From positions 1 to 64,000 of the forward strand of contig JAIEPJ010000036.1 of NCBI GenBank assembly GCA_019749835.1: a stretch of 64,000 nt of DNA, given 5' to 3'. Position 1 is the stretch's first letter. The number at the start of each line of letters is the position of its first letter. Source of the DNA: Phreatobacter sp. (GTDB lineage: Bacteria > Pseudomonadota > Alphaproteobacteria > Rhizobiales > Phreatobacteraceae). Below, piece by piece: positions 26,669 to 30,196 of this stretch. A program made the position numbers and the translations under genes. The notes beneath the pieces are model-generated. The model did no database searches and had not been told where the DNA came from. It saw only the letters and a program-made list of their open reading frames with translations.

Positions 26669-28144
26669 TCAGGAGAGCGAGCGCGAGGCGGTGCGCACCT
26701 TGGCGGTCGCCTCGTCGATTTCGCCGGACGACCTGGCGATCATGTTGATGCTGCTGGAGATGGCCTGGACGCCTTCGGCGGCCACGCGCATGTTAGACGA
26801 CATCTCCGCGGTCACCGCACTCTGCTCCTCGACCGCCGTGGCGATGGCCGTTGAGATTTCGCTGATCCGCATGATGGTCGTGGAGATGTCGCCGATGGCG
26901 CTGACCGCACCCTCCGTGGACGCCTGGACCGAGGCGATCTGAGCGCCGATCTCTTCGGTGGCGCGCGAGGTCTGGGTGGCGAGGCTCTTGACCTCGGAAG
27001 CGACCACCGCAAAGCCCTTGCCGGCTTCACCCGCCCGTGCCGCCTCGATCGTCGCGTTGAGGGCGAGGAGGTTGGTCTGGGCGGCAATATTGTTGATCAG
27101 CTGCACCACGTCTCCGATGCGCGCCGCGGCGGAGGACAGGCCCGACACGATCTCGCCGGTCCGCGACGCCTGTTCGACGGCACCGCCGGAAATCTCCCGG
27201 GCACTGGTCACCTGTCGGCTGATCTCGCCGACGGAAGCGGCGAGCTCTTCGGCGCCTGCGGCCACCGCCTGGACATTGCCCGATGTCTGGATCGAGGCAG
27301 CGGCGACCTGGGTCGCCTCGTGCTTGGCGCGGGATACGGCTTCACCGATGCTGCCCAGATCCCCGTCGATCTGACGCTGCACATTGCCGCGGCGTTCCTG
27401 CTCCTTGACGATCGCCGTGATGTCGGTGGCGAACTTGACCACCTTGAACGGCTTGCCGTTCATGTCGAAGATCGGGTTATAGGTCGCCTGGATCCAGATC
27501 TCCCGGCCGCCTTTGGCGATGCGCTTGTATTGCGCTGCCTGGAACTCCCCGCGGGCCAGGGAGGCCCAGAAGGCTTTGTATTCGTTGGAATGCGCTTCCG
27601 CCGGCGCGACGAACAGCGAATGGTGCCGCCCGCGGATCTCGTCGAGGCCATAGCCGACGGCGCCGAGGAAGTTCTCGTTCGCGGTGATGATCTTTCCGTC
27701 GAGCTCGAACTCGATGACCGCCTGCGCCTTGTGGATGGCGGCGAGCTGTCCCTCGATGTCGGCGCTGCGGAGCTTCTGCTCGGTGACATCGGTTGCATAT
27801 TTGGCGACCATGTAGACCCGGCCGCGGGAATCCATCACCGGATTGTAGGAGGCCTGGATCCAGACCTCCTTGCCGCCCTTGCCGATGCGCTTGTACTCGG
27901 CGACCTGGAACTTGCCGGCGCGCAGATTGTCCCAGAACTGACGATAGTCATGGCTGTCGCGCTCGTCGGCGGCAACGAACATCGAGTGGTGCTGTCCGCG
28001 GATCTCGTCGAGCCTATAGCCGACCGTCTTCAGGAAATTCTCATTGGCCGTGACGATCTTGCCGTTGGGTTCGAATTCGATCACCGCCTGCGAGCGGTCG
28101 ATGGCCGCAAGCTTGGCGGCAGCGTCGTTACGGAACAGCATCAT
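26669..28144 (-). CDS. Soluble methyl-accepting chemotaxis protein with tandem PAS domains
   Basis: Two homologous PAS repeats ([26 protein letters not shown] / [26 protein letters not shown]) then MCP signalling tip; no hydrophobic TM segment. Confidence 0.93.
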
Positions 28145-28326
28145 GACGTTTCCCGGTGGGTACTGGATTACTCAGACGCTATCCATCGACGGGGGCAATT
28201 AAACAAAATCTGAATCGATATGTCCGAATCGGGGTCTGCAATCTGACGTAACGGCAACCATCGGGTCGCGGACTGGGTATCGCGTTACCCTGTGGCGAAA
28301 TGTGTAATGACTTTGCAGTATGAAGC

Positions 28327-28343
28327 TGTACAGAGGCTGTACA
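28327..28343 (+). promoter_or_regulatory. Tandem TGTACA direct repeat with exact 11-bp period, candidate CarH-type operator
   Basis: TGTACA at 28327-28332 and 28338-28343 (TGTACAGAGGC TGTACA), overlapping a TACAAT -10-like hexamer at 28340-28345 upstream of the MerR-B12 gene. Confidence 0.6.
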
Positions 28344-28420
28344 ATGTGCGCAAAGATCGTGGCAGTCATGCAGAATAATGTGGCGCTTTTTTGCGGTTCC
28401 AAAGGCTGTCGGGGCACTCC

Positions 28421-29308
28421 ATGAACAGGGCCATAGACATTTCGCGGCTGTCCCAACTCACCGGTGTCAATGTCTCGACCCTGCGCAGCTGGGAAACGCG
28501 GCACGCGCTGATCACGCCGTCCCGTTCGGTCGGCGGTCATCGGCTCTATTCGGCCGAGGATGTCGAGCGGCTGATGGTGATCAAGGAACTCGTCGCTGCC
28601 GGGCATCGACTCTCAGAACTGCGCGGCCTGACCACCGACCAGTTGAAGCAATTGCAGCCCTCGGTCTCCAACATTGCCTCCCTCGACCGGGACATGGTCC
28701 TCCGACTCGAACGGGCAATCGACGAGTGCGACGTGGATGCCTTCGGCATGCTCCTGCGCTTCGTTTTCGCGGCATCCCCTCCAGCCCTGGCCGTCGATGT
28801 CTATGGCCATGCGATCCGCTATATCGGCCAGCGCTGGCAGGAAGGCCGACTGGGGGTCGGCGGCGAGCACCGCCTGTCGGCCAAGGCGCGCGACATCCTC
28901 ACCGCCGCCACCAGCGCCCTGGCGCCGGCGGCCCATCGCCGTCCGATCGCCTTCGCAACGCTCGGCGACGAGCGCCACGAGCTCGGCCTCCTGGCCGGCG
29001 CCTATCTCGCGGCATCGCTCGGCCATCGCATGATCTATTTCGGTGCGGGCATGCCGGCGCGAGCCCTTGCCGCTGACGTGGCCGAGGCCGAGGCTGCACT
29101 CCTCGTCATCAGTGCGGTGCACAGCGTCCCCGGCGGTTCCCTGCAGGAAGACCTGGTCTGGCTCGACCGCGGACTCTCCGAGGACATTCCCATCTGGATC
29201 GGCGCCCATGAGGCAACCATCGAGCATCTGGTCGTGCCGTCACGGATGGTCGTCGTGCGTGATTATGCGGAGTTTCGGCGGCGCCTGAGCATGACCTTCG
29301 AGTCCTGA
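28421..29308 (+). CDS. MerR-family regulator with cobalamin-binding domain, CarH/LitR-like
   Basis: N-terminal MerR HTH (DISRLSQLTGVNVSTLRSWETRHALITPSRSVGGHRLYSAEDVERL); W-x9-EH (WQEGRLGVGGEH); B12 ligand motif ExHxxG (ERHELG). Confidence 0.93.
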   Translation: MNRAIDISRLSQLTGVNVSTLRSWETRHALITPSRSVGGHRLYSAEDVERLMVIKELVAAGHRLSELRGLTTDQLKQLQPSVSNIASLDRDMVLRLERAIDECDVDAFGMLLRFVFAASPPALAVDVYGHAIRYIGQRWQEGRLGVGGEHRLSAKARDILTAATSALAPAAHRRPIAFATLGDERHELGLLAGAYLAASLGHRMIYFGAGMPARALAADVAEAEAALLVISAVHSVPGGSLQEDLVWLDRGLSEDIPIWIGAHEATIEHLVVPSRMVVVRDYAEFRRRLSMTFES

Positions 29309-29374: not shown

Positions 29375-30196
29375 CTAGTCGAGGAGGTCGTCGCCATCGA
29401 CGCGGCGCAGGTCGAAGGAAAAGACCCGCGTCGCCGCGTCTCCGCGCAAGAAGCCGATGCCGAAAGCCTTCCACCGGACGTTGCGCACCTGGCCCGCCGA
29501 GAATGTCATGACGGAATGGCCGGCGAGCGCCTCGCTGGAGAGCAGCGCACCGCGGATGATCGCCTCAAGCTTGTCTGACAGGCTTTCGACCAGCGCGAGG
29601 ACGTTCTGACGGATCACCATCCGCTTGTCCCGCACATTGATGCACTTCAGGAAGGCGGCGTTGCAGTTGAGGATCGTGCCGTCGCGGGCGAGGACGACCA
29701 TGCAACTGGTGGATTCGGCGATGAGCGTATCGAGACTGGTTCGCAATGCGCCGACCATCGCCGCCTGGCGTCTTTCCTTCTCGCATTTGCGATAGAGACC
29801 CACCACCACCGGGTGTCCGGCCAGCCATTTCAGCACGCAGACCGACTCGATCTCGCTGCCGGCATGGTCGAGGTCGTCGAAACGGAAATGATCGGGCCCG
29901 GCACTGCCGGCATCAATCGCCTGTTTCAGATGGGCGCGGAACTTGGCGGCATCCTCGTCATGGGCCTGCTTCAGCAGATCCGTGAGGGTCGCCTTGATGA
30001 CCACCGTCCGCTCGTTCGCATCGACGGTCTCCCAACGAACCCGCTCGGTCTTCAGGTCGATGGACCAGCTGTGAATGCCCAGACGGTTGAGCAGCTCGCT
30101 ATGGCGCGGCGCTTCGGCCGGTTCGTCGGGCAATGGCGGCGGTGAGGCGTTTCCGGGACGTCCTAGGATGGCGGTCGGCGACAGAAGCAGGGACAT
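29375..30196 (-). CDS. PAS-domain-containing protein of unknown function
   Basis: PAS-like segment LIAESTSCMVVLARDGTILNCNAAFLKCINV; no recognised output domain. Confidence 0.65.
   Translation of the reverse strand: MSLLLSPTAILGRPGNASPPPLPDEPAEAPRHSELLNRLGIHSWSIDLKTERVRWETVDANERTVVIKATLTDLLKQAHDEDAAKFRAHLKQAIDAGSAGPDHFRFDDLDHAGSEIESVCVLKWLAGHPVVVGLYRKCEKERRQAAMVGALRTSLDTLIAESTSCMVVLARDGTILNCNAAFLKCINVRDKRMVIRQNVLALVESLSDKLEAIIRGALLSSEALAGHSVMTFSAGQVRNVRWKAFGIGFLRGDAATRVFSFDLRRVDGDDLLD

Follow-up and report, generated by a model that had tools for sequence, protein, structure and literature searches.

What does a CarH-type photoreceptor regulate when no carotenoid gene lies beside it? In published work, CarH photoreceptors control carotenoid synthesis (e.g. 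crt genes, PMC9304148). The 64,000-nucleotide stretch analysed here (the window; Phreatobacter sp., contig JAIEPJ010000036.1, positions 1 to 64,000) encodes a MerR-type regulator for which the original prediction proposed a CarH photoreceptor with atypical targets, since neither carotenoid nor photolyase genes were seen in the window. Their absence from the window was confirmed; such genes sit elsewhere in the genome.

A CarH-family protein with an AdoCbl-pocket signature

The carH-like gene (28421..29308, + strand) encodes a protein of 295 aa in which a MerR HTH is followed by a four-helix bundle and a B12-type Rossmann domain. Translation probably begins at the ATG at 28421, since orthologue N-termini read MNRAIDISR or similar. 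Pfam MerR_1 matched residues 7–71 (28439..28633, + strand) at E 3.7e-16, well above the cut-off, and the Pfam B12-binding matches were sub-threshold (17.7 bits vs. a cut-off of 32.1). The best NCBIfam match was TransRegCarH (NF052513; 83.8 bits, E 1.2e-23), which did not reach the curated equivalog cut-off of 400 bits; by this sequence model, the protein is homologous to CarH and not an equivalog of it. Among solved structures, Thermus thermophilus CarH/LitR (TtCarH) was the top sequence match (E 4e-19). An AlphaFold model, computed from an alignment of 59 homologues, reached a pLDDT of 91.6 and comprised the HTH, the four-helix bundle and a five-stranded Rossmann domain. When this model was searched with Foldseek, CarH structures were the top matches (5c8d/5c8f/5c8e, E 6e-15), and CtMerR (8jbs, 8jbt) was among the matches too. 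By sequence and predicted fold, the protein is a CarH-family member, from which AdoCbl binding, light response and repression would be expected.

Both motifs named in the original prediction, W-x9-EH and ExHxxG after a MerR HTH, were found exactly as quoted, namely as W139-x9-E149-H150 (28835..28870, + strand), the putative adenosyl cap, and as E184-R-H186-E-L-G189 (28970..28987, + strand), identified by alignment and motif search as the predicted lower cobalt ligand motif. On TtCarH, W139 aligned with W131, E149-H150 with E141-H142, E184 with E175, H186 with H177 and G189 with G180. When the 295-aa protein was shuffled, both motifs appeared in order in 19 of 200,000 sequences, and among the 554 six-frame ORFs of the window only the carH-like ORF carried both, so that the motif pair is not due to chance. 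G136, W139, E149, H186 and G189 were invariant across the 59 homologues, which had been collected with a search pattern that contained the ExHExGLL stretch, but not the Trp or Glu. Regarding the SignatureFinder elements of light-responsive CBDs, GxxW, EH and GxxxP were present and GxxH reads DxxH, with a Gly one residue earlier; at this element, 36/59 homologues have Gly and 14/59 have DxxH. The protein appears to share a signature with proteins reported to be light-responsive (PMC11796333).

The residue following W139, Gln140, occupies the position of His132, which is the second ligand in TtCarH. All clade-A Phreatobacter orthologues have Gln, Glu or Ser there, and His was found in only 9 of the 59 homologues. 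Because the His132 equivalent is Gln, the bis-His light state of TtCarH is not available to the Phreatobacter protein. The CarH-photoreceptor assignment therefore stands with respect to the CarH-type fold and the AdoCbl-pocket signature, and the predicted light-dependent disassembly would have to follow a route other than the bis-His one of TtCarH. The H132A variant of TtCarH is still mostly tetrameric after light (PMC10442372), and CtMerR and SasPcob, with Arg and Gln at position 132, respectively, are reported to be light-responsive (PMC11796333). By analogy, a light response of Phreatobacter CarH without the bis-His state is plausible, a CtMerR- or SasPcob-like light-release route being the more likely one.

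Operator-type repeats in the carH-chemoreceptor gap

A gap of 276 bp separates the carH-like gene from a divergent chemoreceptor (MCP) gene (26669..28144, − strand), the proposed target, whose 491-aa product has the architecture PAS-PAS-MCPsignal; HAMP or extracellular sensor domains were not found in it by Pfam. The gap contains a tandem 11-bp direct repeat, aagcTGTACAg/aggcTGTACAa (28323..28344, + strand), both copies of which fit the CarH operator consensus nnnnTnnACAn perfectly. CarH operators described in the literature consist of 11-bp repeats of this form in tandem, and searches for them accept a relaxed TnnRCR (PMC9304148); positions 28323–28344 are a predicted CarH-type operator. The perfect TGTACA-N5-TGTACA occurred once in the window, with 0.04 matches expected even if two mismatches were allowed. 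Read on the chemoreceptor sense strand (−), four half-sites with a spacing of 11-15-11 were recognised (28343-28338, 28332-28327, 28317-28312 and 28306-28301; span 28301..28343), the last two being imperfect, or present only in relatives, as TnnNMA/TnnRCA. Other CarH proteins are described with contiguous repeats, from which this spacing departs.

An 11-bp-spaced TnnRCA pair was located upstream of carH in 7/7 clade-A Phreatobacter genomes (0.35 in shuffles, 0 with the mirror pattern), and in two of them (G008 and G010) it is the second pair of the four-half-site operator that has the strict form. The 11-15-11 layout on the chemoreceptor sense strand was common to six of the seven Phreatobacter loci, using a relaxed pattern composed after sight of the sequences. 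Half-sites exceeded spacers in conservation (mean 5.2 vs. 4.1 of 6 identical); when the mask was shifted, an equally good result was obtained in just 1 of 228 cases. Family-wide, the TnnRCA pair was likewise enriched before carH (17/74; shuffles 2.5, mirror 3), which supports it independently as the family operator. The Lysobacter xinjiangensis carH is preceded by the identical 17-mer TGTACAGAGGCTGTACA. A scan of the 276-bp gap for sigma-70 promoters and terminators gave no hit. Two more conserved blocks, around AAACAAAATCTGAATCGAT and CTGACGTAACGGCAACCA, were observed between operator and chemoreceptor start (28195-28262) and may represent a promoter or leader for the MCP gene.

Conservation of the divergent pair in Phreatobacter

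The divergent carH/PAS-PAS-MCP pair, together with the repeat, was kept in 7/7 Phreatobacter loci, the chemoreceptor being 79–98% identical in the six relatives. In one genome (G001), the pair is kept though the other window neighbours are gone. All five carH-less Phreatobacter genomes possess an MCP homologue (56–75% identity), the upstream region of which lacks the repeat, and across 13 other MCP upstream regions, taken from carH-less genomes and unlinked paralogues, the repeat was absent except for two off-register chance matches. The atypical targets suggested originally can accordingly be narrowed down: the chemoreceptor is singled out by the CarH-type operator and the conserved divergent pairing, and the amidoligase and nitrogen-catabolism genes drop out. 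The latter (amidoligase/transglutaminase, creatininase and amidohydrolase genes) are not found around the carH-MCP pair of G001 and therefore look like accidental neighbours of carH.

A conserved protein without Pfam or NCBIfam match is encoded convergently with carH (29378-30196, − strand); in G003 and G009, its homologue is located beyond the MCP gene, on the opposite side. A second CarH-like clade, 35% identical and with the same signature, was present in G010 and G008 (L044 4249-5124 and L045 9498-10355); its loci also contain an AraC-type gene and, upstream, an ORF of 80 aa, and in G010 a PAS-PAS-MCP gene adjoins. These clade-B paralogues were not taken as added support, only one of them adjoining an MCP gene and neither having the repeat.

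Other candidate targets in the host genome

Named relatives of the host are Phreatobacter spp. and one Rhizobiales MAG. Outside the window, the host genome contains a photolyase gene and, on contig C196 (G000:C196, L214), bchC, bchX, crtD, crtI and a crtB-type gene, i.e. a photosynthesis gene cluster, which makes it probable that the host grows as an anoxygenic phototroph. The AdoCbl enzyme methylmalonyl-CoA mutase is encoded as well, so AdoCbl is probably available. The second, crtB-type SQS_PSY gene was present in 5/7 carH-positive and 0/5 carH-negative Phreatobacter genomes, counts that are uncorrected for relatedness. As targets, the crt/bch and photolyase loci were rejected, the crt and photolyase stretches scanned containing no operator-grade site.

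The strict operator pattern was found at two places only in the host genome, both before MCP genes. The second (G000:C205, L135; 1501-1518) precedes an MCP gene at 1626-2681 (MCPsignal and a weak dCache). Upstream of the C205-type MCP gene, conservation across 8 genomes is highest in the block TGCwCAAATTgTaTGCA, and one of these genomes is G002, which is without CarH. Being near-palindromic and conserved in the CarH-less G002, this site was not counted for CarH as regulon proof. Elsewhere in the genus, the strict pattern was seldom matched, and the mirror control was exceeded only modestly.

Recurrence of the pairing beyond the genus

Few members of the class have CarH: at a strict cut-off of 1e-30, 2 of 385 sampled genomes were positive, the window's own genome included. 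Eight further alphaproteobacterial homologues were obtained from searches blind to neighbours, and in 5/8 carH is divergent from an MCP gene, four belonging to the same order (G043, G197, G054 and G122) and one to the class (G506). In G253, an MCP gene lies 1.7 kb from a carH homologue with partly lost pocket residues, and in G048, which has two carH copies, MCP genes were not in reach. The MCP types at these loci differ (four-helix-bundle/HAMP/PilZ, HAMP only, dCache-HAMP). The gaps contain perfect TnnACA pairs in G043 and G197 and a TnnRCA pair in G122; clear repeat pairs were not found in the carH-MCP gaps of G054 and G506. At a Neorhizobium lilium locus (L098 10001-14631), a carH homologue and the two genes after it, which encode a soluble MCP and a protein with three CheW domains, share one strand.

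In a tree of 78 sequences, MCP-linked members occurred in more than one place, and most members linked to crtI or photolyase genes were Bacteroidota; that the latter were recovered beside these genes indicates that the neighbour survey works. Since genomes hold only 8–35 MCP genes each, repeated carH-MCP adjacency by chance is, by approximate reasoning, unlikely; G043 and G197 are close relatives. The CarH-chemoreceptor module is apparently undescribed: no such link was found among open PMC papers, and subscription journals may hold one. Tentatively, and with somewhat less than even confidence, we propose a recurrent alphaproteobacterial module in which a B12 photoreceptor repressor would place a neighbouring chemoreceptor of varying sensor type under light control, and chemotaxis or aerotaxis would in this way be reprogrammed by light via receptor supply; its Phreatobacter version would use the 11-15-11 four-half-site operator and no bis-His light state.

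Proposed mechanism and alternative explanations

We consider it probable that the protein is a CarH/LitR-type AdoCbl-binding repressor of the divergent chemoreceptor gene in the dark, with release in the light. In the dark and with AdoCbl, a CarH oligomer would occupy the 11-bp direct repeats of the 276-bp gap and hold down the PAS-PAS chemoreceptor gene, and probably carH too; for this direction of control (dark repression), known CarH proteins serve as the model. Cleavage of the Co-C bond by green or blue light would make the oligomer less stable or its DNA binding less tight, leading to derepression. Light, together with oxygen and AdoCbl supply, would in this way set the chemoreceptor complement and thereby swimming behaviour. 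Light may thus determine which chemoreceptors these Phreatobacter make, rather than carotenoids. If the conserved CarH-chemoreceptor pair acts as proposed, B12 light sensing gains a behavioural output, and light-guided movement becomes possible without a dedicated phototaxis receptor. As a natural CarH without His132, the protein also offers a system for the study of the light-release mechanism.

The same chemoreceptor could instead be regulated by an AdoCbl-binding protein for which cobalamin supply or redox/oxygen, and not light, is the relevant signal. In agreement with this, the whole clade has lost the His132 ligand, the partner carries PAS domains of types often seen in sensors of oxygen and redox state, and published work links the CarH response to oxygen in addition to light (PMC10442372). 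Trp and Glu of the adenosyl cap are nevertheless invariant, every genome with a photosynthesis-type crtB also has carH, and SasPcob is reported light-responsive in spite of its Gln at position 132 (PMC11796333), and we regard a purely cobalamin- or redox-dependent regulator as unlikely.

Doubtful to a higher degree is a light-sensing CarH that uses the repeats for autoregulation and has its main regulon, i.e. photosynthesis, carotenoid or photolyase genes, elsewhere. The host does have bchC, bchX, crtD, crtI, a crtB-type gene and a photolyase gene at other places, crt genes are the targets of known CarH proteins, and the repeats are upstream of carH itself as well; yet the scan of the crt and photolyase stretches gave no operator-grade site, the only other genomic place with the strict pattern is also before an MCP gene, and chemoreceptor pairing recurs in other lineages. 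Very improbable, finally, is that the repeat is a promoter element or the site of another factor, with carH-MCP pairing by hitch-hiking or with cobalamin binding lost. TGTACA is self-complementary, so that direct and inverted readings are indistinguishable from the window alone, and the similar motif before the C205 MCP gene also occurs in the CarH-less G002. Against this, the tandem repeat is missing from the 13 other MCP upstream regions, the two off-register matches aside, it is enriched before carH family-wide, and the pocket residues are intact.

Relation to known systems

AerR of purple bacteria is not known to have a MerR HTH. This B12-dependent antirepressor of CrtJ (PMC5362033) resembles the proposed system in its B12-dependent light control in phototrophic proteobacteria and acts through CrtJ on photosystem promoters. 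TtCarH (5c8d, 5c8e, 5c8f, 3whp) shares the domain order, the predicted fold, the Trp/Glu-His cap, the lower-ligand His motif and the 11-bp direct-repeat operator with the Phreatobacter protein, but identity is about 25%, His132 is replaced by Gln, the operator has three contiguous repeats instead of the 11-15-11 layout, and its neighbours are carotenoid genes, whereas a chemoreceptor gene is the neighbour in Phreatobacter. The same light signature is found in CtMerR of Chloracidobacterium thermophilum and in the photocobilin SasPcob (PMC11796333), where position 132 is likewise not His (Arg and Gln, respectively). SasPcob differs from the Phreatobacter protein in its biliverdin domain, and a MerR HTH is not reported for it in the text consulted, which also gives no chemoreceptor link for either protein. 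The myxobacterial CarH/CarA operators (PMC9304148) are similar in their tandem 11-bp TnnACA repeats, their tolerance of imperfect copies and the occurrence of divergent arrangements; they target crt genes, while the Phreatobacter neighbour is a PAS-PAS chemoreceptor. In a gammaproteobacterial group of the CarH family (L060-L065, L073, L075 and L112), Trp and Glu of the cap are kept and ER replaces EH, corresponding to a change of His142 to Arg.
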